A stretch of DNA of 64,000 nt from Sulfuriferula sp. AH1 (GTDB lineage Bacteria > Pseudomonadota > Gammaproteobacteria > Burkholderiales > Sulfuriferulaceae): positions 2,790,001 through 2,854,000 of the forward strand of contig NZ_CP021138.1 in the NCBI RefSeq assembly GCF_002162035.1. Reading direction: 5' to 3'. The notes beneath the pieces were generated by a model. That model had not been told where the DNA came from. It was given only the letters and a program-made list of their open reading frames with translations, and ran no database searches. The position numbers and the translations under genes are program-made. Positions within the stretch are counted from its first letter, which is position 1, and every line of letters starts with the position of its first letter. Positions 47,610-60,073 of the stretch are shown here, piece after piece.

Positions 47610-48194
47610 ATGCCCCACAACCCGCAGCTTGTCTACTGCAAAACCGCAAAAGGCCACGAAGAAATTGCCGGTCGTCACCACGGCCTGCAATCCCGTCAGC
47701 GCAGCACCCTGATATTGATGGATTGCGCAAAAAGTCTGGGCATCATTGCTACCGCCATACCGCTGCCCGAGCTGGAAAAGACCATCCCCTTCCTGCTGCA
47801 AAGCGGATTCATCGTGTTAGCCGACGAACAGCGCGAACAGGCGACGCGGATTAACGCAATGCAGAATCGGGTGGTGACGAATGACATCAATCTGACGTCT
47901 GCCGCCCTCAAACCGGCCGTCATCACCCCATCCCCACAGCCCCGCTCACCTGCACTGACCCAGGATCCCGCCGTGATCGCAGAAGTGAAACACTTCATGA
48001 CCACGACAGCCAATACCTATCTCGGGCTCATGGGTGCGGAAATAATCAGCCGCATCCAGCGTTGCCACAGTGCGGAACAGCTCATGGCCGCAGTTGCTCA
48101 CTGGCACATGGCATTGCGCGATTCCAAGACCGGAGTTGCATTTGCCGCCGATTTTCTGGAACAGGTTCGATTCGAGCTGCATAACGGCAATTGA
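47610..48194 (+). CDS. Conserved betaproteobacterial hypothetical protein
   Basis: About 194 residues from MPHNPQLVYCKTAKGHEEIAGRHHGLQSRQRSTLILMDCAKS. The N-terminal pattern (K-T-x-K-G-x-E-E-I-x-x-R ... L-x-x-R-x-R-x-x-L-I-L-x-D) is one I associate with a widespread but uncharacterised betaproteobacterial family. A Pro-rich middle is followed by a helical C-terminus (RIQRCHSAEQLMAAVAHWHM). The reading frame is open further upstream (GTG at 47556). No function can be assigned. It is divergent from the glycine riboswitch and overlaps the open frame of the next gene slightly. Confidence 0.75.
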   Translation: MPHNPQLVYCKTAKGHEEIAGRHHGLQSRQRSTLILMDCAKSLGIIATAIPLPELEKTIPFLLQSGFIVLADEQREQATRINAMQNRVVTNDINLTSAALKPAVITPSPQPRSPALTQDPAVIAEVKHFMTTTANTYLGLMGAEIISRIQRCHSAEQLMAAVAHWHMALRDSKTGVAFAADFLEQVRFELHNGN

Positions 48195-48271
48195 ATCGAC
48201 AGCTATCTGAAGCCGCAATTCCGCTATACAATCCGGCTAAATGTCATAAATATTCGTTAGCAGAGATGGTC

Positions 48272-48607
48272 ATGGACACAGCCCCTGAAGATAAGAATGC
48301 CGAGCCCACTCGCACTGAAATCAATGCGCTGCAAGGGCCGGCTGTATTGGAATTCGGCGCCGCCTGGTGCGGACACTGCCGGGCAGCACAACCGCTGATC
48401 GCCCTGGCGTTTGCCGGACAACCACACATACGCCACATCAAAATCGAAGACGGCAAGGGACGCCGTCTGGGACGATCATTTACCGTCAAACTCTGGCCGA
48501 CACTGATCTTTCTAAAGGATGGCCGGGAAGTAGCACGGCTGGTGCGCCCGGATGACGCGACATCCATTGCTGACGCGCTGAACAGGATAAGTATCCTGCG
48601 CAATTAA
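48272..48607 (+). CDS. Thioredoxin-like protein with a transposon-altered C-terminus
   Basis: A 111-residue thioredoxin-fold protein with PAVLEFGAAWCGHCRAAQPLI (active site W-C-G-H-C) and the cis-Pro region KLWPTLIFLKDGREVARLVRP. ATG at 48272 follows AGAG by six bases; in-frame starts further upstream exist. The last codons (Ser-Ile-Leu-Arg-Asn-stop) are read from a Tn7-like end sequence. If the inserted DNA is removed at the repeated ATAAG, the gene would end Arg-Ile-Ser-Gly-stop (TAA at 58231-58233), 10 bp before the glmS stop. So insertion only replaced the last residues. Confidence 0.85.
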   Translation: MDTAPEDKNAEPTRTEINALQGPAVLEFGAAWCGHCRAAQPLIALAFAGQPHIRHIKIEDGKGRRLGRSFTVKLWPTLIFLKDGREVARLVRPDDATSIADALNRISILRN

Positions 48608-48892
48608 AGTCGTAAATAACGATTCCCATAACATATAAATTTATGACCTATAAATTTCAAACCAACCTTTGGTAAAGTCATAAATTCAACATTTTTAAAT
48701 TACTTCAACCAAATCAGAATATCCTGCTAATAAGCTATCAGCCGTTACAAATTTAAGTGGCTCACTCAAAGCCTGGGCAAGCAACATTCGATCAAACGGG
48801 TCCTGATGCATGTCAGGAAGCAGCATAATTCTAGCAGCGTGTTTTGGCGTTATGTCTAACACTTGGTAACCATTTTTTTCTATTTCTTCACA
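48592..48892. mobile_element. Left-end remnant of an older Tn7-like insertion
   Basis: TATCCTGCGCAATTAAAGTC at 48592 differs at four positions from the first 20 bases of the intact element at 48898, and the following 80 bases are also similar (both contain a second AAAGTC-TAAATTCAAC repeat). It is preceded by ATAAG at 48587-48591, the same 5 bp that flank the intact element. A related degenerate right end may be at 58093-58119. Read as the remains of an earlier insertion in the same attachment site, holding a vapC fragment. Confidence 0.6.
48695..48892 (-). pseudogene. VapC-type PIN-domain toxin, C-terminal fragment
   Basis: The C-terminal half of a PIN-domain ribonuclease: GYQVLDITPKHAARIMLLPD, DPFDRMLLAQAL, FVTADSLLAGYSDLVEVI. 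The D-P-F-D-R-x-L-[IL]-A-Q-A block and the T-x-D motif are typical. The N-terminal half, with the first acidic residues, and any vapB are missing. The sequence homologous to PIN stops at the transposon boundary (48893-48897), although the ORF can be opened at 48907 from inside the transposon end. Non-functional. Confidence 0.75.
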
Positions 48893-48897
48893 ATAAG
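48893..48897. repeat. Left target-site duplication ATAAG
   Basis: ATAAG directly before the TGT of the left transposon end, identical to 58222-58226 directly after the ACA of the right end. Five bases is the duplication made by Tn7-family transposition. A third copy is at 48587-48591. Confidence 0.85.
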
Positions 48898-48923
48898 TGT
48901 TCTGCACAATTAAAGTCGTAAAT
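48898..48923 (+). repeat. Left terminal inverted repeat of the Tn7-like element
   Basis: Begins TGTTCTGCACAATTAAAGTC and runs 26 bases, an exact reverse complement of 58196-58221. It includes the first transposase-binding-type repeat (AATTAAAGTCGTAAAT). A second, AGTAAAGTCGTAAATTC, is at 48978-48994. Confidence 0.9.
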
Positions 48924-49087
48924 GACGAGTCCCATTTTATATGGGTTCCAGACCTACCAATTTCACACTAGCCTTTAGTAAAGTCGTAAATTCAACCCTG
49001 TATCTACTATGTCTATTTTACGACTCCGCGTAAATGCCCGATAACAACCCGATGCGGGCATTAATGCTTCTAGTTGAAACCATAAGG

Positions 49088-50309
49088 TGTAGTAGTCGCG
49101 ATCTGATCTGACAGTTCCCCGGTTTGACAGATGCAGCTGTCAGTTCAGATTCAGTTGTTCAATGTGGTGATTTTATCGTGCCATGCCTCCTTTCCGTCAA
49201 TAAGTGTTTGCGTCGGAGTGCGGCCGCAGCACATCTTGCCCTGATGGGTGCGGTCATTGTTGTAATAAACCAGCCATTCATCCAGATCCGTTTGCAGCTC
49301 CGCGATTGACCGGTAAATCTTGCGCCGGAACGCGACCTGATAGAACTCCTGCAGGATGGTCTTGTGGAAGCGTTCACAGATGCCGTTGGTCTGCGGATGA
49401 TTGGCTTTGGTCCTGGTATGCTCGATGTCATTCAAGGCCAGATAGAGCTGATAGTCATGGGATTCCGGTTTGCCGCAATATTCGGTGCCGCGATCCGTCA
49501 GGATGCGTATCATCCCCATGTTCTGCTCGGCGAAGAATGGCAGCACCCGGTCATTAAGCAGATCGGCTGCGGTGATCGGCATTTTGGTCGTGTAGAGTTT
49601 GGCCGCTGCCCACTTCGAATAGGTGTCAACGAAGGTCTGCTGGTAAATCCGGCCGACGCCTTTGAGGGTGCCCACATAGAACGTATCCTGGCTGCCGAGA
49701 TAGCCTGGGTGAGCCGTTTCAATCTCGCCATGCGCCACATCGTCGTCCTGTTTCTTTTCCAGGGCGCCTACTTGCGCTTCGGTCAGCACCTCGCCCGTTT
49801 CAGCAACATGCCGTTCCAGTGCAGTCAGGCGCTTCTTGAACGATTCGAGATCACGCCGCAGCCAAACAGAGCGTACACCAGAGGGAGAAACAAAGATGCC
49901 GCGTTTGCGCAGCTCATTGGATACGCGCACCTGACCAAATGCCGGTTGTTCCAGGGCGAAGGCGGCAACCGCTAATTCTGTGGCCTCTTCAACCCGGTTC
50001 TTGTGGTTCGGCTTTCTGCGATTAGCATCGATCAGGGCGTCGACACCACCGTTTTCCATAGCCGACTGATAACGGTAGAAGGTATCGCGGGAAAAGCCCA
50101 TCACCTTGCAGGCGCGGGACACATTACCGAGTTCAGCAGCCAGATTCAGCAGGCCAACCTTGTGTTTGATAACGTTTTGGTGAAAACTGTTCATGGGGTT
50201 ACTCCTTGGCGCTTGCGCGCTTTGTTTGATAAAGATTCGCACCTATATCAAACCGGGTAACCTCACCTTTGGCAAGGCCATACTGTCAGATCAAGTCGGA
50301 ACTACTACA
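49088..50309 (-). mobile_element. IS481-family insertion sequence, copy 1
   Basis: A 1,222 bp element. Its ends TGTAGTAG ... CTACTACA are imperfect inverted repeats about 28 bp long, sharing GATCTGACAGT. It appears identical to copy 2 (53172-54393), in opposite orientation. The flanks do not show a duplication within this copy. Instead, the 7 bp to its left (CATAAGG, 49081-49087) recur reversed to the left of copy 2, which points to inversion of the DNA between the copies. Confidence 0.88.
49151..50194 (-). CDS. IS481-family transposase, copy 1
   Basis: A 347-residue DDE transposase starting at ATG 50194 behind AAGGAG (MNSFHQNVIKHKVGLLNLAAELG). An N-terminal helix-turn-helix (GNVSRACKVMGFSRDTFYRYQ) is followed by a second HTH region (PNHKNRVEEATELAVAAFAL and GQVRVSNELRKRGIFVS). 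The integrase core (TFYVGTLKGVGRIYQQTFVDTYSKWAAAKLY, ILTDRGTEYC, HTRTKANHPQTNGICERFHKT) carries the catalytic D, D and E. The C-terminus has WLVYYNNDRTHQGKMCCGRTP. The amino-acid sequence is identical to that of copy 2, so the duplication is recent. Confidence 0.95.
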   Translation of the reverse strand: MNSFHQNVIKHKVGLLNLAAELGNVSRACKVMGFSRDTFYRYQSAMENGGVDALIDANRRKPNHKNRVEEATELAVAAFALEQPAFGQVRVSNELRKRGIFVSPSGVRSVWLRRDLESFKKRLTALERHVAETGEVLTEAQVGALEKKQDDDVAHGEIETAHPGYLGSQDTFYVGTLKGVGRIYQQTFVDTYSKWAAAKLYTTKMPITAADLLNDRVLPFFAEQNMGMIRILTDRGTEYCGKPESHDYQLYLALNDIEHTRTKANHPQTNGICERFHKTILQEFYQVAFRRKIYRSIAELQTDLDEWLVYYNNDRTHQGKMCCGRTPTQTLIDGKEAWHDKITTLNN

Positions 50310-50375
50310 CCTACACTATTAAGAAGGTCGTAGAAATTGTGCCGCCATCACGTCCAGAGCAATCGTGGTTGAACC

Positions 50376-50440
50376 TCTAACAATTCGTTGCAGGCACGAC
50401 GACCCTAACGGGCCGTAACCTGAACTCAAACGTTGATTGT
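50376..50440 (+). repeat. Integron attC-like recombination site
   Basis: CTCTAACAATTCGTTGCAGG followed, after about 25 bases, by CCTGAACTCAAACGTTGATT. The left half matches the common attC opening (T-C-T-A-A-C-A-A-T-T-C-[AG]-T-T) and the right half matches the closing (A-A-C-T-C-A-A-[GA]-C-G-T-T). The halves pair imperfectly, as attC hairpins do. The last core base triplet departs from GTTRRRY, so the site may be decayed. No integron integrase gene is in the window. Confidence 0.6.
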
Positions 50441-50444
50441 CTGT

Positions 50445-50494
50445 TTTCGAAATCCGCGAATGTCACTTATAAGTGACATTCGCGGATTTCGAAA
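50445..50494. repeat. Perfect 50 bp palindrome
   Basis: Two 25 bp arms (starting TTTCGAAATCCGCGAATGTC at 50445) meet without a loop at CTTATAAG, axis between 50469 and 50470. It lies beside the attC-like site and in a 294 bp gene-free stretch (50310-50603). It can form a long cruciform or hairpin. A terminator role is possible on neither strand by the T-run criterion; it may be a folded recombination or replication signal. Confidence 0.85.
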
Positions 50495-50603
50495 TGTTCA
50501 AATTGAGGGGCTGGCCGCCACGAAACGTGACCGGAGCCTAGAAAATTCAATAACCGCAGGCCGCAAAGAGAATGCATACGGCCAGTCCCTCTCGAATGCA
50601 GGG

Positions 50604-51320
50604 TTAGGCGCTGATGTGTGTAACTAGATTTGTGACCCACTGTTCTTTGTCCTTTTGCAGCGTGGGTAATGGATGGAAATATTTATTTTCTGTGCTTGGC
50701 TTCATCAGTCCAGTAAGCTCAAACGAGCTAGCCACCTTACTCAAACACCTTTCAATAAGCGGGTCTAAATCAGAGCTGACACCCCATGCGCAAACGATAG
50801 GTGCTTCTGGTTTCTTGTTCAGCTTGCGTCTTAATTCAACGGATCGGTTGTCAGCGAATAATGAATGAGCAGAAAACCCAGTTCGGTTTTCAATATCGTT
50901 ATAGCGTTCAACAAAGCTCCCACTTTTTGGGTCCCTCATGTCTGAGATATTCAAGACTCTGACATGATGCCAGCCGCAATAGTGCATGACTCGCATTACT
51001 TGATACTGGGTGGTATCTGGTTTTGTTGGCACTAACGACACCTCAAGTTGATTTATCAAGCCCTCTGAAATGAAGTTATTTACTTCTACAAGCGGTCTCG
51101 ATGAGCCTGGGTTCATCATGATAAAAATTGCGTCAGGGGAGTCGTCTAGCAACAAGCCAATATCCGATGGTTTTCTTTGACTTGATACGATTTCTAAAAC
51201 ACTTCGGCAATCAATTTTCTCGCCAGACTTCAAATCCACCGAATAGAAATGACCGAACACTTCAAAGTATTTCTTAAGTTGCTCGGCAGGTATGAATTCA
51301 AGCAATTTCTGATACCTCAT
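50604..51320 (-). CDS. DUF1643-like protein, probable integron cassette gene
   Basis: A 238-residue soluble protein. DAIFIMMNPGSSRPLVE, PDTTQYQVMRVMHYCGWHHVRVLNISDMRDPKSGSF and, near the C-terminus, VCAWGVSSDLDP and KYFHPLPTLQKD resemble the N-P-S/D-x-T-x3-x-x-R/L-N-L and H-P-L features of DUF1643 proteins, often found in mobile elements. Function unknown. It ends next to GGGTTAGGCGC (50601-50611), an attC-like core, and starts five bases from the attC at 51325, so it has the form of an integron cassette. Confidence 0.65.
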   Translation of the reverse strand: MRYQKLLEFIPAEQLKKYFEVFGHFYSVDLKSGEKIDCRSVLEIVSSQRKPSDIGLLLDDSPDAIFIMMNPGSSRPLVEVNNFISEGLINQLEVSLVPTKPDTTQYQVMRVMHYCGWHHVRVLNISDMRDPKSGSFVERYNDIENRTGFSAHSLFADNRSVELRRKLNKKPEAPIVCAWGVSSDLDPLIERCLSKVASSFELTGLMKPSTENKYFHPLPTLQKDKEQWVTNLVTHISA

Positions 51321-51324
51321 GGAA

Positions 51325-51388
51325 GCCTAACGTCAGAGCTCAGGGGAAGCGCCGCTTGCGGCGCGTTCCCTGGAGCGCAGTGTTAGGG
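51325..51388 (-). repeat. Integron attC site
   Basis: On the minus strand it opens with CCCTAAC and closes with GTTAGGC, the R-Y-Y-Y-A-A-C / G-T-T-R-R-R-Y core boxes. Inside are CTCCAGGG and CCCCTGAG arms with a GC-rich terminal stem (GCGCCGCAAGCGGCGC). At 64 bp this is a textbook attC. It overlaps the 3' end of the HEPN-like gene, whose last residues (LQGTRRKRRFP) are read from the site, as is common in cassettes. Confidence 0.85.
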
Positions 51389-51858
51389 TCAAGGCGGACA
51401 TAGGCTCTAGCCACTTGATAAACGACAGCAATGGCCTGCCTTGCCGATACCTCAAACCCTCCTTTCGCAAAAATATAGTCAGCCATCGAGAGAGCATCTG
51501 GCGCTCGGAGATAATGAGCTATATCGTTTCTAGTGGATTTCAGCCACGCAATTTCGTCTTTGATGTAGTCAAGCTGTTCATGAATCTCGTCTCGCGCCCC
51601 CTCATTCACATCCTGTAGGAAGAGTTCCACTATCGCGGCCGCGAAGACCACACAGGCAAGGTATGCGCCACTGCAATAGCTACGCTCCAACTCACGCTCG
51701 AGAACTTGAAATTTCTCAGGCGGGCTGTTCTTGCCAAGGCTGTCGTAGTACTTCACTCCCAGGCCGGTAACTACATCTCGACGAGCCATCCATTGCTCGT
51801 AGGTTGGCGGTGCAACACAGAACGCTTCGTTGAGTGCAATAGCGTGTTCAATGCTCAT
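51340..51858 (-). CDS. HEPN-like protein, integron cassette gene
   Basis: A 172-residue helical protein. LKSTRNDIAHYLRAP holds the R-N-x3-H motif of HEPN-type ribonucleases, and a long hydrophobic/acidic helix (ACVVFAAAIVELFLQDVNEG) precedes it. HEPN proteins act as RNase toxins or in abortive defence. No MNT antitoxin partner is adjacent. Its stop lies within the attC at 51325-51388, and an attC-like core (GACCCTAACAGTTATTAGAC, 51873-51892) lies just upstream of its start, so this is one cassette. Confidence 0.65.
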   Translation of the reverse strand: MSIEHAIALNEAFCVAPPTYEQWMARRDVVTGLGVKYYDSLGKNSPPEKFQVLERELERSYCSGAYLACVVFAAAIVELFLQDVNEGARDEIHEQLDYIKDEIAWLKSTRNDIAHYLRAPDALSMADYIFAKGGFEVSARQAIAVVYQVARAYVRLDPNTALQGTRRKRRFP

Positions 51859-51872
51859 GACGGCTCTTCGCT

Positions 51873-51892
51873 GACCCTAACAGTTATTAGAC
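51873..51892 (-). repeat. Partial attC-like core upstream of the HEPN cassette
   Basis: Minus strand GTCTAATAACTGTTAGGGTC, with a GTTAGGG core box, 14 bp before the HEPN start. It probably marks the preceding cassette junction. The stretch 51893-52487 upstream is AT-rich (particularly 52190-52440), and I find no convincing gene in it. Confidence 0.5.
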
Positions 51893-52322
51893 GGACCCAG
51901 CGGTCAGCAATATTGTTAATAATGAGGCGAGTTGTTTTTTGATAAGTTGTTGATTCATATTCACTCCATCAATTTCTCTGTCCGTATAAGATGTAACAAT
52001 ACGGCAAATCAATGACGCTCGCCTGACTGGAATGGAACAGTGGGAATTCATCAGTCTGGTGGCTGCTGTTGCTCGCATTACTGACATTTGATGATTAGAT
52101 TGTGACCGTCCGCTGTGGCCGAATAACGGATATTCGACATTTAGAATTAAAAAACGGTGCAACCAGGGATGCAATTCCAATCATGTTCGTAAGATATCAA
52201 AAATGAATTATGGCGAATTATTACAATTACAATAATTTATTATTTTTGGATAATTTAGCATAATTGCACACTATCAAATTGATTATAAATATATTTTTCT
52301 ATTTATATCATCTGCAAAAAAG

Positions 52323-52409
52323 ATTGGGTTAATAAATTTAAAATTATTGTTAATTATATCCACATGGATATAATTAACAACTCACATCAGTGTTTTTGAT
52401 TAACCCAAT
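52323..52409. repeat. Nested inverted repeats in an AT-rich gap
   Basis: Outer arms ATTGGGTTAA (52323-52332) and TTAACCCAAT (52400-52409) enclose an inner 14 bp perfect hairpin (GTTAATTATATCCA at 52349-52362, its complement at 52365-52378, 2-base loop). It precedes the XRE-family gene by about 80 bp. It could be a MITE-like remnant or an operator and hairpin for that regulator. Confidence 0.6.
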
Positions 52410-52487
52410 GTGCCTGCAATAAACAAAGCATGAAACTGATTTCATAGTTAGCTAACATGGTTGTAGCCACGCAGAAAGTATATTGAA

Positions 52488-52808
52488 ATGACTAAAATCG
52501 AACTAGGAAGCGATAACGTTTATGCTGATATTGGGATGCAAGATGCTGAAGCCATGCTGTTCAAAGCCAAGTTATCCAGCAAAATTACGGAAATCATAAA
52601 ACAACGTAACCTGACACAAAACGAAGCTGGCGCTATTGTTGGAATGCCTCAATCAAAGCTATCAAACATACTTCGTGGACAGTTTAGAGGTATATCTGAA
52701 TTCAAAATGCTTCATTGTCTAAACAAGCTTGGTCAAGACATAGAAATTGTGATTACAAAGGCTCCTCCGAATGAAACCATTGGGAAAACAAGTATCGTAT
52801 TTGCGTAA
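52488..52808 (+). CDS. XRE-family antitoxin (HigA-like), orphan
   Basis: A 106-residue protein with a helix-turn-helix (ITEIIKQRNLTQNEAGAIVGMPQSKLSNILRGQFRGISEFKMLHCLNKLG), the XRE/HTH-37 type found in HigA-like antitoxins and phage regulators. No toxin gene lies beside it: upstream is a gene-free AT-rich stretch, downstream a 58-codon ORF. It may repress from the nested palindrome upstream. Possibly a survivor of a toxin-antitoxin pair disrupted by the IS rearrangement. Confidence 0.8.
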   Translation: MTKIELGSDNVYADIGMQDAEAMLFKAKLSSKITEIIKQRNLTQNEAGAIVGMPQSKLSNILRGQFRGISEFKMLHCLNKLGQDIEIVITKAPPNETIGKTSIVFA

Positions 52809-52939
52809 TGGCGTGCCCACCTAATTATGATAATGGAGTGGTTGGTTTCATTAGAATATGCAACATTTCAATATCAAATCAAATAATACTGACTGGTAAA
52901 ATAGTTGAAATACCCTAAAAAGAAGAGAAGTGCATCGCA

Positions 52940-53116
52940 ATGTCAAAATCGAAAAAAGAACAATTTGCAAAATTAAAACAAGCCGTAGCAGAGACGGCTT
53001 CATTGCGAGCACAGGAGGCGGTGAACAATGGCATTGTTTTTGAATACTTCAAAAAAATTGCTGATGATTCTGTTATACCAGAATCGGAGTCTGTTCTTGC
53101 AGGATACAAGAAGTGA
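52940..53116 (+). CDS. Small hypothetical protein (58 aa)
   Basis: Starts at ATG 52940 behind AAGAGAAG. The product is charged and helical (MSKSKKEQFAKLKQAVAETA, ending SVLAGYKK), in the size range of antitoxins or regulators, with no recognised family. It lies 131 bp after the XRE gene and 55 bp before IS copy 2. Assigned on ribosome site and codon pattern; moderate certainty. Confidence 0.5.
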   Translation: MSKSKKEQFAKLKQAVAETASLRAQEAVNNGIVFEYFKKIADDSVIPESESVLAGYKK

Positions 53117-53171
53117 TCGTGAGTCTGATATTTTAAGGAACTCCGGGTTAGGTTATCCACCAATCCTTATG

Positions 53172-54393
53172 TGTAGTAGTTCCGACTTGATCTGACAGTA
53201 TGGCCTTGCCAAAGGTGAGGTTACCCGGTTTGATATAGGTGCGAATCTTTATCAAACAAAGCGCGCAAGCGCCAAGGAGTAACCCCATGAACAGTTTTCA
53301 CCAAAACGTTATCAAACACAAGGTTGGCCTGCTGAATCTGGCTGCTGAACTCGGTAATGTGTCCCGCGCCTGCAAGGTGATGGGCTTTTCCCGCGATACC
53401 TTCTACCGTTATCAGTCGGCTATGGAAAACGGTGGTGTCGACGCCCTGATCGATGCTAATCGCAGAAAGCCGAACCACAAGAACCGGGTTGAAGAGGCCA
53501 CAGAATTAGCGGTTGCCGCCTTCGCCCTGGAACAACCGGCATTTGGTCAGGTGCGCGTATCCAATGAGCTGCGCAAACGCGGCATCTTTGTTTCTCCCTC
53601 TGGTGTACGCTCTGTTTGGCTGCGGCGTGATCTCGAATCGTTCAAGAAGCGCCTGACTGCACTGGAACGGCATGTTGCTGAAACGGGCGAGGTGCTGACC
53701 GAAGCGCAAGTAGGCGCCCTGGAAAAGAAACAGGACGACGATGTGGCGCATGGCGAGATTGAAACGGCTCACCCAGGCTATCTCGGCAGCCAGGATACGT
53801 TCTATGTGGGCACCCTCAAAGGCGTCGGCCGGATTTACCAGCAGACCTTCGTTGACACCTATTCGAAGTGGGCAGCGGCCAAACTCTACACGACCAAAAT
53901 GCCGATCACCGCAGCCGATCTGCTTAATGACCGGGTGCTGCCATTCTTCGCCGAGCAGAACATGGGGATGATACGCATCCTGACGGATCGCGGCACCGAA
54001 TATTGCGGCAAACCGGAATCCCATGACTATCAGCTCTATCTGGCCTTGAATGACATCGAGCATACCAGGACCAAAGCCAATCATCCGCAGACCAACGGCA
54101 TCTGTGAACGCTTCCACAAGACCATCCTGCAGGAGTTCTATCAGGTCGCGTTCCGGCGCAAGATTTACCGGTCAATCGCGGAGCTGCAAACGGATCTGGA
54201 TGAATGGCTGGTTTATTACAACAATGACCGCACCCATCAGGGCAAGATGTGCTGCGGCCGCACTCCGACGCAAACACTTATTGACGGAAAGGAGGCATGG
54301 CACGATAAAATCACCACATTGAACAACTGAATCTGAACTGACAGCTGCATCTGTCAAACCGGGGAACTGTCAGATCAGATCGCGACTACTACA
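53172..54393 (+). mobile_element. IS481-family insertion sequence, copy 2
   Basis: A 1,222 bp element, apparently identical to copy 1 but inverted, with ends TGTAGTAGTTCCGACTTGAT and ATCGCGACTACTACA. It cuts into a Cas4-like nuclease gene at its right side. The two inverted copies frame the integron-cassette and antitoxin segment (50310-53171). Confidence 0.88.
53287..54330 (+). CDS. IS481-family transposase, copy 2
   Basis: Identical in amino-acid sequence to the product of 49151-50194, with the same HTH and DDE core. It starts at ATG 53287 with AAGGAG seven bases upstream; the frame is open upstream to 53239. Intact, so the element may still be active. Confidence 0.95.
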   Translation: MNSFHQNVIKHKVGLLNLAAELGNVSRACKVMGFSRDTFYRYQSAMENGGVDALIDANRRKPNHKNRVEEATELAVAAFALEQPAFGQVRVSNELRKRGIFVSPSGVRSVWLRRDLESFKKRLTALERHVAETGEVLTEAQVGALEKKQDDDVAHGEIETAHPGYLGSQDTFYVGTLKGVGRIYQQTFVDTYSKWAAAKLYTTKMPITAADLLNDRVLPFFAEQNMGMIRILTDRGTEYCGKPESHDYQLYLALNDIEHTRTKANHPQTNGICERFHKTILQEFYQVAFRRKIYRSIAELQTDLDEWLVYYNNDRTHQGKMCCGRTPTQTLIDGKEAWHDKITTLNN

Positions 54394-54397
54394 ACTA

Positions 54398-54622
54398 ATG
54401 CGACCGATGCTGTCTGGCTTGTCTGCGGTTCATCCTAAAAATATCATCGTGTCTAGCATTCTGTCTGCAGAAATGGTAACAGCCACTCCTAGCGGCAAAC
54501 TTACCAGCACTAATGCCTATAAAGCGGCAAAGCGCTTCCTGTCTGGCGACCACTCGCCAGTCAAAGGGCACCACTGCAAACGCTGTACATACATGACTAT
54601 CTGCCCATCGAACCCAAGCTGA
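54398..54622 (+). pseudogene. C-terminal fragment of a Cas4/PD-(D/E)XK-type nuclease
   Basis: The 74 codons directly after IS copy 2 end in FLSGDHSPVKGHHCKRCTYM followed by TICPSNPS. The C-x2-C-x5-C spacing is that of the iron-sulfur cysteines at the C-terminus of Cas4-like and AddB-like PD-(D/E)XK nucleases. The catalytic part is missing, lost to the IS insertion or rearrangement; I do not find it elsewhere in the element. 145 bp separate it from the Bil operon. Confidence 0.55.
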
Positions 54623-54766
54623 GTTCATAGTATCTGCACCGGCTCGGCTCGCACTCTCCTATCTTCACCACATAACTCCTCAACTGTTTTCCTTTTTCGT
54701 CAGTCATCTCGGTTAAGTAAGTATAAGGCCGTGGTGTACACGGTCACGAGAATGAAGGAGTTTTCC

Positions 54767-55252
54767 ATGACGATCCAAATATTTTTGCAATCTGAGCTTT
54801 TAGCTGACATTGAGGTGATTGAATTGGCATTGAATGCCAGCGAAAAAGAACTCCGCGAGGCATGTCTTGCGAAGCTGCCTGAAGGTCATGAAGCAGAAGA
54901 ATTTCATCTCTTCATTGAGGATGAAGATGACGACCAGCCGTTTCAAAAACTTCATGGCATACCTGGGGGGTTACGAGTACACCTGCACCGCCAGAAAGGT
55001 ATCGATGTGATGGTGCGTTATGCTGGAAGCGACGTGCGGCGTTCATTCCGCCCAAGTTCCACGGTGGGACGCATCAAGCACTGGGCTACGCAAGAGTTGG
55101 GTATTGCAGCATCCGATGCGGCAGAACTGATGCTTCAGGTCAGCGGCACTGATTCCCGCCCTGATGCTGACATCCACATTGGAGCACTCGTCCATGAGCC
55201 TGCAAAGTCGCTGTCGTTTGATTTAGTTCCATCACCCCGTGTCAACGGCTAA
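54767..55252 (+). CDS. bilA: BilA-like protein: two fused ubiquitin-like domains (ISG15-like)
   Basis: A 161-residue protein starting at ATG 54767 behind AAGGAG. Two beta-grasp-like halves are visible. Residues 1-75 have the strand-helix pattern MTIQIFLQ, then ASEKELREACLAKL, EFHLFIEDEDDD, GGLRVHLHRQK. Residues 78-154 repeat it: GIDVMVRYAG, STVGRIKHWATQELG, ELMLQVSGTD, KSLSFDLVP. The chain ends in ...PRVNG, a C-terminal Gly ready for activation. Tandem Ubl domains with an E2, a JAMM peptidase and an E1 downstream define the Bil system, in which BilA is conjugated to a phage tail protein. Assignment from domain order and context. Confidence 0.82.
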   Translation: MTIQIFLQSELLADIEVIELALNASEKELREACLAKLPEGHEAEEFHLFIEDEDDDQPFQKLHGIPGGLRVHLHRQKGIDVMVRYAGSDVRRSFRPSSTVGRIKHWATQELGIAASDAAELMLQVSGTDSRPDADIHIGALVHEPAKSLSFDLVPSPRVNG

Positions 55253-55262
55253 AGGAGTTGGT

Positions 55263-55718
55263 ATGTGTGACGGAAAAGCTGAGATCGAGGCTCATCTACG
55301 TTCTGGTCGATTCCTGTCTGGTGCAGCCAAGGGACGTTGGAGGCTCGTCGAACTGCAATGGCCACTGGCATTCATTGAGGTTGGCGCAAGAGATGGGCGT
55401 CGATTTACGTTGCGCTTCGATTGCATAGGTTATCCAGATCAACCAGTAACGGCGACCCTGTGGGACTTACCAGCGAAACGACAGTTGCCCACCGCCTTGT
55501 GGCCTAGTGGAGGGCGAGTGTCGCAGGTATTTAACCCGGGCTGGAAAGGTGGCTCCGCCTTGTATATCCCGTGTGATCGACAAAGCATCGAGGGGCATGC
55601 CAACTGGCTGTCGGAACACCCCTGGCTTATTTGGAATCCAACACGAGGCCTCCTCCAGTACATCGAAGCAGTCTGCGAAATATTACATAGCCATGAACTC
55701 AACTACCAAGCTGCTTGA
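55263..55718 (+). CDS. bilB: BilB-like E2 ubiquitin-conjugating-fold protein
   Basis: A 151-residue protein, ATG at 55263 with AAGGAG inside the bilA stop region. An N-terminal helix and beta sheet (IEAHLRSGRFLSGAAKGRWRLVELQWPLAFIEVGARDGRRFTLRF) are followed by GGSALYIPCDR with the candidate catalytic Cys104, then HANWLSEHPWLIWNPTRGLLQYIEAVCEIL, a helix common at the end of bacterial E2-like proteins (W-N-P-x-x-G-[LI]). It would carry BilA as a thioester from BilD to target. It lies 10 bp after bilA and overlaps bilC by 26 bp. Confidence 0.8.
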   Translation: MCDGKAEIEAHLRSGRFLSGAAKGRWRLVELQWPLAFIEVGARDGRRFTLRFDCIGYPDQPVTATLWDLPAKRQLPTALWPSGGRVSQVFNPGWKGGSALYIPCDRQSIEGHANWLSEHPWLIWNPTRGLLQYIEAVCEILHSHELNYQAA

Positions 55719-56184
55719 ATTTCGTCCAGGCGTATGGACAGCGCTCATAGCCGACCTGCGCAATAGGGGGAACGGATGCCGTGAGTCTGGCGCCTTTTTG
55801 CTGGGGAACATTGTAAATGGCATTAGGGTCGCGCAAACATGGTTGCCATATGACGAGCTAGATCCATTGTCTCTTAACTATGAGTACATTCGGCTTCGCT
55901 CAGAAGCGTTCTCCAAGCTTTGGGAGATTTGTGAGCAGCACCACATGCAGGTGGTAGCAGATGTGCACACTCATCCACGTGGGCCTGGTCAGAGCCCGTC
56001 AGATCGCGCTAATCCAATGATTGGGCTGGCCGGACACATGGCACTGATTATCCCGCGATTCGCGCAAGGAAATGTAACCCCTGCGGATGTAAGCGTAAAC
56101 GTGTACTTGGGTGCAAAGAGGTGGGAAAGCCATTTTGGGCAGCAGGCTGTAGTGCTCATTAAATTACCTTCAGGAGAGATTTGA
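55693..56184 (+). CDS. bilC: BilC-like JAMM/JAB deubiquitinase-type peptidase
   Basis: A 163-residue zinc peptidase, start ATG 55693 (MNSTTKLLEFRPGVWTALIA). The JAMM residues are present: Glu31 in CRESGAFLLG, His92 and His94 in VVADVHTHPRGPGQSPSDRANPM, Ser101 and Asp104. GLAGHMALIIPRFA follows. In Bil systems this enzyme removes BilA conjugates or trims BilA. It overlaps bilB by 26 bp, and its stop overlaps the bilD ATG (TGATG), so the four products are translationally linked. Confidence 0.88.
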   Translation: MNSTTKLLEFRPGVWTALIADLRNRGNGCRESGAFLLGNIVNGIRVAQTWLPYDELDPLSLNYEYIRLRSEAFSKLWEICEQHHMQVVADVHTHPRGPGQSPSDRANPMIGLAGHMALIIPRFAQGNVTPADVSVNVYLGAKRWESHFGQQAVVLIKLPSGEI

Positions 56185-57488
56185 TGGATGCAGATTCTTT
56201 TCATCGCCTAGCAAAAGTTTTAGCGGACAGCGGCGAAGCAATCAGTCTACAGGATATGGATGCCACTTTCAGCCGCTATGGAGTACGCATCCTGCTTGAT
56301 GATTTATTCTCTTCCAATATCTGTGCACAGGTCATAGCTCTGACTGCGATTAATTCCGCAGCGCGCAGCTTTCGCGGCAATGTCGAAGTGATTGCACCGT
56401 TCAATTCTATACTAATAGCACCTGGCTTCGAGGGCATATCCTTGACCGAGTTCATGTCTTGGCTTGGAATCGGTGACATTGCAATGGAAACAGCGGCTTC
56501 CTGGCCGACGATAAATATAGGCAATCCGTCAGACGCAGGGCCTACGCCAACAATTAGGCCTTGGGCAGATGGTTGGTGTTTCGGTATAGGCAATAACGGA
56601 GCATGTACCACCAACTTCTTTGCTCCCGCATGTGTAGCCGCTGGAGGACTGGCAGTTAGTGAAGCCTTTTCCATACTGCGCCAAGACAATCCTTATGCCG
56701 GACGACGCAACATTACACTTTCGTTGTGGTCAGTTGCATCAGGTACTGCTGACGTGAATCCTCCTGAAGAGGAAGTGCCATCAGTATCCTCAGCATGGCT
56801 TGTGGGTTTGGGGCATCTCGGCCAAGCGTATGCCTGGATATTAGGATTCATGAGGCCAGCCCAGAATGCGACGCTTTATCTACAAGATATCGATGTAGTG
56901 ACCAAGTCCACGCTTTCCACGTCCATGCTGTCCGTGACGAGTGATCTCAATAAGAGGAAGACGCGGATCGTGGCTAAATGGCTCGAACAGCGTGGATATT
57001 CCATAGCACTTGTCGAACGCAGATTTGATGGCGCTCAACGTGTTGGTTTGAACGAACCGCAACTGGCTTTATTTGGAGTAGACAATGCCGCTGCACGACG
57101 AATATTGGAAGGAGCTGGCTTACGTTTTGTGATCGACGCCGGACTTGGATCAGGTTACCGTGATTTTCGCGCCATTCGAGTGCGAACTTTTCCAGGGCCA
57201 TCAGAAGCCGCACAAATTTGGGCTGCGGATAACGTTACAACGAACTCGTCACAGGCCATCGCCTACAAAACCTTGCTTGCGGCAGGAGCTGATCCGTGTG
57301 GTGTTACTACGCTCGCTACGCGCGCTGTCGGTGCGCCGTTTGTTGGTTGCGTTGCAGCAGCCTATGTCGTTGCTGAGTTCATACGTCACGAAATGGGCGT
57401 GAGGCCTGTTGGGTTTATTGACCTCAACTTACGAAATCCTCATGACATAGATGCGGGAACCGTACAGATTTTCGCGCCAATTAATTGA
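56184..57488 (+). CDS. bilD: BilD-like E1 ubiquitin-activating-fold protein
   Basis: A 434-residue protein. The N-terminal 190 residues form an inactive or accessory region. The C-terminal ThiF/E1 adenylation domain has SAWLVGLGHLGQAYAWIL (nucleotide G-x-G-x-x-G), the acidic strand LYLQDIDVVTKSTLSTSML (D-x-D, as in the E1 D-x-D/N-x-x-R-Q region), KRKTRIVAKWLEQRGY and FVIDAGLGSGYRDF. A candidate thioester Cys372 lies in GADPCGVTTLATRAVG. It would adenylate the C-terminal Gly of BilA and transfer it to BilB. ATG 56184 overlaps the bilC stop; AGGAGAG lies just upstream. Confidence 0.85.
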   Translation: MDADSFHRLAKVLADSGEAISLQDMDATFSRYGVRILLDDLFSSNICAQVIALTAINSAARSFRGNVEVIAPFNSILIAPGFEGISLTEFMSWLGIGDIAMETAASWPTINIGNPSDAGPTPTIRPWADGWCFGIGNNGACTTNFFAPACVAAGGLAVSEAFSILRQDNPYAGRRNITLSLWSVASGTADVNPPEEEVPSVSSAWLVGLGHLGQAYAWILGFMRPAQNATLYLQDIDVVTKSTLSTSMLSVTSDLNKRKTRIVAKWLEQRGYSIALVERRFDGAQRVGLNEPQLALFGVDNAAARRILEGAGLRFVIDAGLGSGYRDFRAIRVRTFPGPSEAAQIWAADNVTTNSSQAIAYKTLLAAGADPCGVTTLATRAVGAPFVGCVAAAYVVAEFIRHEMGVRPVGFIDLNLRNPHDIDAGTVQIFAPIN

Positions 57489-57503
57489 TAGAAAGGATGT
57501 GAC

Positions 57504-57827
57504 GTGTTGGAACGATTGGAAAACTATTTTTTAACTGAGCCGGAAAGACTTATTGAGCTGGGAAGAGCTTTAACTTTTATGGGCGTATGGCTTATCCTGC
57601 TCGGCTTCGTAGGCAACGTAGCAACGAGTGCAATAAACGGAATAGGAATTATCGGCGGCCATGCGGGCGCGACGAAAACACTGGCTGACATTTATCCATC
57701 CTTACCTACGTGGTGGGTGCCAGAGACTTTCGTCGGCGCATTACCAGCAATGGCGCTCATGTCCATTGGAGTCTGGTTCAACCTCGAAGGTAGGCGCATT
57801 CGGCGCTTTATGGGTAATTACAGATAG
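57504..57827 (+). CDS. Small membrane protein at the end of the Bil operon
   Basis: A 107-residue protein with GTG start behind GAAAGGATG, 15 bp after bilD. Two or three hydrophobic stretches (LTFMGVWLILLGFVGNVAT, INGIGIIGGHAGAT, FVGALPAMALMSIGVWFNL) and a basic C-terminus (EGRRIRRFMGNYR) predict an inner-membrane protein. It is not one of the four described Bil proteins and I do not recognise its family. Spacing suggests co-transcription with bilABCD, so it may be an associated effector, anchor or unrelated passenger. Confidence 0.65.
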   Translation: MLERLENYFLTEPERLIELGRALTFMGVWLILLGFVGNVATSAINGIGIIGGHAGATKTLADIYPSLPTWWVPETFVGALPAMALMSIGVWFNLEGRRIRRFMGNYR

Positions 57828-58092
57828 GGAGTACTCATCAGCAGTTTCATAAAGCGGACGCTCGCACTGCCCTTTATTCAACACCGCCATGGAATACTGA
57901 GTGACCGCAAGGGCCGAGCAGTTGACATCTGCGATAGCCGAACTATACGGCTTGCATACATTTTTTTGGGTACCGGAATATCGGGCGTTATGGGTGGCGT
58001 GTCTAGCCAGAATCCGTATTCGATTTTTGCCACGTGCAAAGGGGACAAACCTCGGTAGCAGGCGAATGCCGGCTATGAAATCTACCCCCTTC
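57828..58092. other. Gene-free stretch before the right transposon end
   Basis: Between the membrane-protein gene and the right-end repeats, no ORF of convincing quality is seen on either strand (a minus-strand frame over 57741-58094 overlaps the coding gene and lacks a ribosome site). Nothing resembling tnsA, the gene usually nearest a Tn7 right end, was found. Confidence 0.5.
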
Positions 58093-58221
58093 AATTTACG
58101 ACTTTAATTGCGCGGAATAGATAGGCAGTTTCGAAGCCTATTTCGTCGTACTTTAATTTATGACTTTAATAACCTATTTACGACTTTATTAACCTATTTA
58201 CGACTTTAATTGTGCAGAACA
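58093..58221 (-). repeat. Right end of the Tn7-like element: repeat array and terminal inverted repeat
   Basis: On the plus strand, ATTTACGACTTTAAT at 58196-58210, ATTTACGACTTTATT at 58176-58190 and ATTTATGACTTTAAT at 58156-58170 follow each other every 20 bp, with a partial fourth at 58145-58155. The last 26 bases (58196-58221) are the exact complement of the left end. A further copy, AATTTACGACTTTAATTGCG at 58093-58112, resembles the older degenerate end at 48592. Confidence 0.88.
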
Positions 58222-58226
58222 ATAAG
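58222..58226. repeat. Right target-site duplication ATAAG
   Basis: Directly follows the terminal ACA of the transposon and equals 48893-48897. It lies 17 bp outside the glmS stop codon (58244-58246), the distance expected for attTn7 insertion. Confidence 0.85.
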
Positions 58227-58243
58227 CGGCTAACGTTCGCTAA

Positions 58244-60073
58244 CTACTCCACCGTCACCGACTTGGCCAGATTACGTGGTTTATCGACGTCCGTGCCTTT
58301 TTGCAACGCCGCATGATAGGACAACAGTTGCAGTGGAATGGTATGTAATATCGGCGACAACCAGCCGGCATTATCCGTAAGCTGTATCACATGCACTCCT
58401 TCGCTGGCGCTAATGTGGGTATCGGCATCGGCGAACACATACAGCTCCCCGCCGCGCGCGCGCACTTCCTGCAAGTTGGATTTGAGTTTCTCCAGCAATG
58501 CATCGTTAGGTGCGATGGCGACGACCGGCATGTCTTTGTCCACCAGCGCCAGCGGGCCGTGTTTGAGCTCCCCTGCCGGATAGGCTTCGGCGTGGATGTA
58601 GGATATCTCCTTGAGCTTGAGTGCACCTTCCATTGCGATCGGATAATGCATGCCGCGGCCGAGAAACAAGGCGTGCTGTTTGTCGGCAAAACGCTCGGCC
58701 CATTGCGCTACTGCAGGCTCCAACTCCAGCACGCGCTGGACTTCTGCGGGCAATGCACGCAATTCGGCGACATAGGCGGCTTCTGCCGCAGCAGTCAGGC
58801 GGCCGCGCTGTTTGGCGAGCAGCAAGGTAAGCAGGAACAGCGCGGCTAACTGCGTGGTAAAAGCTTTGGTCGATGCCACACCGATCTCGGGACCGGCACG
58901 GGTGAGAAAGCGCAGCTTCGATTGGCGCACCAGCGCAGATTCAGGAACGTTGCAGATCGACAGGGTATATTCATGCCCCAACGCTTGGGCATGATTCAGT
59001 GCAGCGAGCGTGTCGGCGGTTTCACCCGATTGCGACAGCGTTATCACCAGCGCATGCGAATTGGGCACGCTGTCGCGATAACGGTATTCGCTGGCGATCT
59101 CGGCTTGACAGGGAATGCCCGCCAGCGACTCTATCCAGTAGCTCGCCACTTTACCGGCGTGATAGCTGGTGCCACACGCGAGGATCGTGACGGCATTGAT
59201 TTCGGCGAAGACCGCCGCTGCATCAAAACCGAACAATTCCGGCAATAAATGCTCTCCCATTACCGCATCATGCAAGGTATCGGCCAACGCGCGCGGCTGC
59301 TCATGGATCTCTTTTTGCATGAAGTGACGGTAATTGCCCAGCTCGGACATGTCCGACGACTGCTCGGAGATGAAAATATTGCGCTCGACACGCTGCCCGG
59401 CGGCGTCATAGATAGCGACTGCTAACAAGCCCAGGTCGGCGATATCGCCCTCTTCCAGATAAATGACTTTTTGCGTCACCGGCAGCAATGCTGATACGTC
59501 GGAAGCGATAAAGTTTTCTTCTATACCCAGACCGATCAGCAACGGGCTACCGCGCCGAGCGCAAATCAAACGCTGCGGTACATCGGCAGCAACCACGCCG
59601 ATCGCAAACGCGCCTTGCAAATCGGCTACGGTTCTGCGCACCGCTGTCAGCAGATCGCCGTCTATCTTGTAATAATGGTGTATCAGGTGAGCGATGACTT
59701 CGGTATCGGTTTCTGACGTGAAGATGTAGCCCAGCTCACGCAGACGCTGGCGCAGTATTTCGTAGTTTTCGATAATGCCGTTATGCACTACAGCGATCAA
59801 ATCATGACTCACGTGCGGATGCGCGTTAGCTTCATTGGGTGCGCCATGGGTTGCCCAGCGCGTGTGGGCGATGCCCCACTGACCCTGCACCCGCTGCTGT
59901 TGCACGGCTTCGGCCAGCGCCGCCACGCGACCGATGCTGCGCACGCGGTGCAGGCCATTATTAATCACCACCAGACCGGCCGAATCGTAGCCGCGATATT
60001 CCAGGCGACGCAGACCTTCGAGCAAAATGGGTACAACGTTACGTTGCGCTACCGCCCCTACGATGCCACACAT
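58244..60073 (-). CDS. glmS: Glutamine-fructose-6-phosphate aminotransferase (isomerising)
   Basis: A 609-residue enzyme making glucosamine-6-phosphate for peptidoglycan and LPS. The N-terminal glutaminase starts [10 protein letters not shown] with nucleophile Cys2, and has [21 protein letters not shown]. Two SIS domains follow ([35 protein letters not shown]). The C-terminal end [12 protein letters not shown] is the invariant end of GlmS, whose coding DNA forms the TnsD recognition site of Tn7. A Tn7-like element lies right behind it. It is encoded 2 bp after glmU. Confidence 0.98.

Follow-up and report, generated by a model that had tools for sequence, protein, structure and literature searches.

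The window, a stretch of 64,000 nucleotides from Sulfuriferula sp. AH1 that was analysed over its whole length, contains a gene island immediately downstream of glmS, in which defence genes, insertion sequences and cassette-like genes lie between nested transposon ends (Table 1). The main cargo is BilABCD, a predicted anti-phage system, with genes for BilA to BilD present in order (PADLOC, E 5.3e-50 to 9.9e-148). Bil is a bacterial ISG15-like anti-phage system. Two IS481 copies lie in inverted orientation in the island, and between the DUF1643 gene and the 172-aa gene there is an attC-like site that folds well (z -3.96; 0 of 200 shuffles as stable). The fold of part of a second probable attC region is weak (z -1.74); this region contains a perfect 50-bp palindrome, perhaps a small insertion. 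The PIN-domain fragment between the two left ends corresponds to profile positions 63–113 of the 120 in PF01850. As a side observation, the Rfam family psRNA2 (RF02349) matches one end of both IS481 copies (53104–53285 and 50196–50390), and this sRNA family may therefore include insertion-sequence ends.

Table 1. Features of the glmS-proximal island and its flanks, in positions of the window.
Feature	Position	Strand	Remarks
Thioredoxin-like gene, left chromosomal flank	48191..48607	+	frame enters L1 by 3 residues beyond joined-flank length
ATAAG copy 1 (outer left)	48587..48591	.	
L1, outer, older-looking left end	48592..48690	+	terminus TATCC; sites 48602 and, degraded, 48670
PIN-domain (VapC-like) C-terminal fragment	48695..48892	-	N-terminal half missing; ends at ATAAG
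ATAAG copy 2	48893..48897	.	
L2 left end	48898..49025	+	TGTTC; sites 48908, 48976, weak reverse ~49017
IS481-family insertion sequence copy 1	49081..50313	-	transposase 49151-50242
Probable attC region split by perfect palindrome 50445-50494	50405..50606	-	by eye; partial fold weak
DUF1643 gene, cassette-like	50604..51320	-	
attC-like integron cassette site	51318..51392	-	fold z -3.96; cores CCCTAAC/GTTAGGC by eye
172-aa gene without assignment, cassette-like	51340..51858	-	
HTH_37 DNA-binding gene	52488..52808	+	
IS481-family insertion sequence copy 2, inverted relative to copy 1	53168..54400	+	identical over 1,223 bp
BilA (ubiquitin-like)	54731..55252	+	E 5.3e-50
BilB (E2-like; DUF7665)	55239..55718	+	E 9.9e-56
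BilC (JAB protease)	55507..56184	+	E 3.3e-59; match from residue 62, ORF start probably too early
BilD (E1-like, ThiF)	56181..57488	+	E 9.9e-148
107-aa gene, no assigned function	57504..57827	+	
Possible decayed tnsD stretch (weak)	57827..58024	-	no Pfam match
R1', inner right-type end	58094..58119	-	TATTCCGCGC + site
R2 right end	58156..58221	-	three sites, 20-bp spacing
ATAAG copy 3, adjoining glmS	58222..58226	.	
glmS, attTn7 target gene	58244..60073	-	

Sequence comparison identified perfect 26-bp inverted ends with TGT/ACA termini at 48898–48923 (L2) and 58196–58221 (R2), and the ATAAG copies on either side of this pair form a 5-bp target duplication. Both ends combine these termini with several TnsB-type sites in an asymmetric arrangement: R2 has three (58156, 58176 and 58196), and L2 has two clear ones at a distance of 68 bp, the third left-hand repeat being a weak reverse-orientation match (TTTACGACT). 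Between the R2-side edge of the element and the glmS stop codon there are 22 bp (58222–58243). Across 48500–58240, seven sites resemble AATTAAAGTCGTAAAT with at most 3 mismatches, where 200 first-order resamplings yielded 0.09 on average and never more than 1; perfect inverted repeats of at least 26 bp number three in the window, namely the L2/R2 ends, the IS481 pair and one palindrome. An earlier note on this DNA had described a Tn7-like element in attTn7 with perfect ends, an ATAAG duplication and a right end 22 bp past glmS, all of which our analysis confirmed; of the three dispersed left repeats and the closely spaced right ones that it listed, the right-hand array stands as described and the left-hand one is reduced to two clear sites, and the boundaries that it drew give way to those of a larger, composite island.

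This composite structure is apparent from two further ends. An extra outer left end, L1 (TATCCTGCGCAATTAAAGTCGTAAAT), begins at 48592 with its own ATAAG upstream, and shares 80% identity with L2 across 90 bp, its second site being degraded. An inner right-type end, R1', is similar in its interior to the right-end interiors of two Gallionella metagenome-assembled genome (MAG) loci (80% and 85% identity), and R2 matches the right end of a same-genus genome, G002 (89% over 72 bp). Three ATAAG copies beside three ends, together with the further inner right-type end, argue for stacked insertions. When the outer flanks of L1 and R2 are joined with one ATAAG kept, the result is a thioredoxin-like frame that ends in DALNRISG, 15 residues after LVRP, with ...AGGATAAGCGGCTAA... 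as the predicted uninterrupted glmS–thioredoxin junction. The tail after LVRP is 18 residues long in the interrupted gene of the window, 15 in two of five relatives (G016 and G017) and 17, 11 and 13 in the others. Since the joined flanks restore a tail as long as that of the two closest relatives, the island probably spans 48592–58221 (9,630 bp). An empty attTn7 site with a single ATAAG, for which the earlier note had looked to related strains, was not seen in any of the 14 stretches next to glmS, on its downstream side, that were compared within the genus; the thioredoxin gene is absent from all 14 and is located elsewhere in those relatives that have one.

Between the ends we found no tnsA, tnsB, tnsC or target-selector gene, and at E values as high as 10 tblastn of the island with cognate Tns proteins returned no credible match, in agreement with the description of the locus as defence cargo without transposition genes. 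For this reason we class the island as a tns-less derivative and not as a Tn7-like transposon proper. The best sub-credible matches were one to TnsA inside the DUF1643 gene (E=0.003) and one to TnsD at 58024–57827 on the minus strand (E 0.036 and 0.079), 70 bp in from R1' and running inward as a tnsD would. The latter stretch, which is without a Pfam match, scores 25.4 bits, a value reached in 0 of 1000 resamplings (maximum 24.3), counting one of five query results. It may be a decayed tnsD, a hint from sequence similarity that could also have arisen by chance.

We then consider the source genome as a whole (2,916,145 bases, 2 contigs, completeness 99.91), in which the earlier note had proposed to look for a helper tnsABCD with matching end repeats. 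TnsA (PF08722) has no match in it, nor in any of the 13 genus genomes of our order draw, the same model being positive in 64 of 399 genomes of the order. A cognate TnsB was likewise found at 1e-5 neither in the source genome, where two of six first-look candidates were scored, nor in 12 other genus genomes, using an alignment profile (A1) that detects 23 of the 399 order genomes at this threshold. We dropped PF09299 (Mu-transpos_C) as a TnsB test in favour of this alignment; as the model also missed the TnsB of a tns-bearing relative described below (L153), its silence is not evidence of TnsB absence. Its two matches in the source genome are one Mu-like and one Tn5053-type protein. The single TniQ match is Tn5053-type as well, on plasmid C2; no helper was found in this genome, and the end motif (at most 3 mismatches) occurs in it at four places, every one inside the island.

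These searches bear on the possibility that a resident non-Tn7 transposase, either the Tn5053-type Tni proteins of C2 or the Mu-like transposase at C1:716132, moves the island. Both are indeed present in the genome, but we regard this as highly improbable, given that the end motif is confined to the island and found neither on C2 nor at the Mu-like locus, that the TniA frame on C2 is open for just 209 aa, and that 22 bp from glmS is a TnsD-type position. Considered for themselves, the Tn5053-type genes of the 39-kb contig C2 (L005) comprise tniB, tniQ, a resolvase gene and the 209-aa TniA piece, and an ATPase gene follows that of the Mu-like transposase (L096/L089), which suggests a Mu-like prophage.

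Ends of this family are not confined to the window. A scan of genome contigs with the end pattern returned 12 exact-match stretches in 9 other records; seven of these stretches adjoin glmS, judging from translations. With up to 2 mismatches, the pattern was found in 9 of the 399 genomes sampled from the order; in the draw from the class it was found in 1 of 369, which is the source genome itself, and a reversed control pattern hit 2 of 369, so that single loose matches can be due to chance. Within the genus, ends lie at glmS in the source genome, G002 and G017, and a degenerate end is present in G016. By eye, same-genus right ends at glmS (L044:136 and L046:19896) are followed by attC-like GTCCTAAC...GTTATGC, which suggests that cassettes adjoin the right end there too. 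We did not find this end family described in the literature searched, including the available portions of PMC8649781, PMC6360697 and PMC13370975.

Transposition genes rarely accompany these ends. TnsA is encoded in two of the nine end-bearing order genomes (G193 and G291), each time on a contig other than that of the end and against the base rate of 64/399, and a cognate TnsB in one (G291); near tnsA in the first 30 such loci from the order, no end motif of the island family occurs, L060 having a Tn7-type motif. One locus, however, combines both. In L153, 12,547 bases of MAG contig JAJXVB010000015, an end of the family lies 22 bp beyond glmS and is followed by tnsD (PF15978, 237 bits), a TniQ gene and then, on the other strand, tnsC, tnsB and tnsA. 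The contig stops 1.0 kb beyond tnsA, so that the far end lies outside it. As this stretch contains no further end between the two, the end and the tns genes would belong to one element; the earlier idea that such ends belong to a Tn7-like tnsABCD element thus finds its counterpart in another genome. The TnsA, TnsB and TnsC of L153 share 63, 71 and 70% identity with their counterparts in G291 (L119), and no Pfam model matches its TnsB above threshold. The stretch L153:3256–11516 represents a Tn7-like family with tnsA far from the glmS-side end. The same ends adjoin glmS in 7 of the 12 exact matches and tnsABCD in one case; together with seven sites where 0.09 are expected, this refutes for the island locus the notion that they are chance or non-transposon repeats, a notion to which we give virtually no credence.

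Tns genes can also be seen in decay. In G208, an end at glmS has, 131 bp inside it, residues 407–565 of a tnsD (48% identity, E 8.7e-41), the first 406 being absent, with no match to TnsA or TnsB; the contig ends 0.69 kb inside the end, which limits the claim to a truncated tnsD. Three arrangements elsewhere were rejected: the ends of Polaromonas sp. P2-4 at 1492588 and 1598650 as a 106-kb element (duplications ACAGC and CAATT), paired ends in G404 and G412 as units, whose duplications also differ, and the Gallionella tnsABC of G411 and G412 as partners, which are located at comM without such ends.

The terminal trinucleotide varies within the family. Among the ten ends that the order draw yielded outside the source genome, TAT replaces TGT in six (L107, L109, L110, L111, L021 and L023), a change far more frequent than that at any other end position: it makes up 6 of 13 mismatches at the specified positions (binomial P 8.9e-6, for ends that share descent and are thus not independent). 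L1 (48592) and R1' (58119) of the island have TAT as well. Where the duplications of a pair match, every end has TGT, with L1 as the sole exception. The TAT terminus may represent a recurrent inactivation, or else an alternative terminus.

Among 502 end pairs in 24 stretches, duplications match only for the island's own L1–R2 and L2–R2 pairs and for one pair in P2-4, with about 0.5 expected by chance. The P2-4 unit (15,023 bp, 2510334–2525356; L151:835–15857) is flanked by GCCGG, lies outside attTn7 and contains catabolic-looking cargo, as judged from translations, and a search within it gave no tns match between the ends. Units without tns genes and with matched duplications therefore exist. 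Two JS666 plasmids, both of a type classed as conjugative, also have ends of the family; for plasmid 1, the listed features of 181935–349999, in an incomplete gene table, include no Tns product. A search of plasmids returned no match for the left end and none for the Bil operon, and with the TnsB of L153 gave matches below 60% identity only, the best among those listed at 29%.

These observations allow L2–R2 to be read as a tns-less satellite that transposed into attTn7 in its present form, using the TnsABCD of a related element (a plasmid-borne one, for instance) that has since disappeared. We consider this possible though unlikely. The perfect L2/R2 ends, their intact site arrays, the ATAAG on both sides and the sharing of ends with the tns-bearing L153 agree with it, as do the P2-4 unit, the ends on conjugative-typed plasmids and the excess of ends over cognate transposase in the order. 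At the same time, no second copy of the L2–R2 unit occurs among the loci compared, TnsA and cognate TnsB are absent from the source genome and 12 other genus genomes, and R1' and L1 make up a stack, hence L2 and R2 may come from different insertions. The broader proposal of a class of such satellites in Betaproteobacteria, large cargo units that have kept the ends alone and borrow TnsABCD from rare helpers and in which the TGT to TAT change perhaps fixes some copies, we judge rather improbable. The cargo of such a class would be defence genes in the source genome and catabolic genes in P2-4.

We instead favour, as the probable if far from certain explanation, an accreted attTn7 island that has lost its tns genes and kept competent-looking ends. 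One betaproteobacterial Tn7-like family would have inserted downstream of glmS at least two times, and probably three (L1, L2, R1', R2), every insertion using TnsABC and TnsD and duplicating the same ATAAG, by analogy with Tn7. The newest insertion would adjoin glmS, and the three ATAAG copies fit successive insertions. Deletions would then have eliminated the tns genes, cut vapC short and placed R1' next to R2, IS481 and cassette genes accumulating meanwhile, so that what remains would be cargo, mainly BilABCD, between L2/R2 ends that still look usable.

Accretion is supported by four same-family ends in one locus, by ATAAG beside L1, L2 and R2, by the degradation of L1 relative to L2, by the 15-residue thioredoxin tail of the joined flanks, by the interior of R1' and the end R2 matching different relatives, and by the lack of TnsA and TnsB matches in a genus with several ends at glmS. 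Additionally, the tns-bearing L153 has such an end at glmS, G208 shows tnsD decay directly, and a weak tnsD-like stretch lies inside R1'. Against it stand the 26-bp identity of L2 and R2 with matching duplications, as in a single recent unit, the tns-free P2-4 unit, and a thioredoxin tail that differs in three of five relatives; no relative shows an intermediate stage. Tn7-type insertion at the fixed attTn7 gives an identical duplication every time, and because repeated insertions yield the same one, matching ATAAG copies are no proof of one recent event. The earlier reading of L2–R2 as a recently moved unit is consequently not supported in that form. L2 and R2 could form a single unit or derive from separate insertions. 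Their identity over 26 bp speaks for a single unit, and the inner R1' shows that deletions or captures took place in between. Several orders of insertion and deletion fit the data. With its transposition genes gone, the island is probably stranded and immobile in the present genome, and would move only if a related element brought cognate TnsABCD into the cell; such mobilisation in trans is possible.

BilA, BilB, BilC and BilD stand in the same order as in the Bil system, and nothing unusual was apparent in the gene set. Defence systems, insertion sequences and integron cassettes are also cargo of the Tn7-like transposons described in PMC8649781, a survey that, according to its available portion, began from HMMs of core Tn7 proteins, which puts tns-free elements outside its reach. 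Surveys based on transposition proteins thus miss such loci, and an end-based search reveals islands without machinery, as well as a rare tns-bearing family with a TnsB that no Pfam model matches above threshold. Should such units be mobile in trans, Tn7 would spread defence and catabolic genes to a greater extent than the number of tns genes indicates; should they be relics, attTn7 would be a site at which useful cargo is fixed for good.

Among its relatives, the island shares its end family and glmS position with L153, whose TnsD is a strong PF15978 match, but the latter has tnsA, tnsB, tnsC, tnsD and a TniQ gene, with tnsA far from the glmS-side end, unlike in Tn7. With the P2-4 unit it shares the end family, a matched 5-bp duplication and the lack of tns genes, whereas that unit lies away from glmS with catabolic-looking cargo. 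Like Tn7 and the tnsD-targeted Tn7-like elements at attTn7 (L117, L125 and L126), the island lies downstream of glmS with its right end glmS-ward, and it has the clustered right and dispersed left sites, 5-bp duplication and TGT/ACA termini of Tn7-type elements, and a site core close to the Tn7 core present in L117 (CAATAAAGTCTTAAA). It differs from them in being without tns genes, in belonging to another end family and in having layered ends in one locus.
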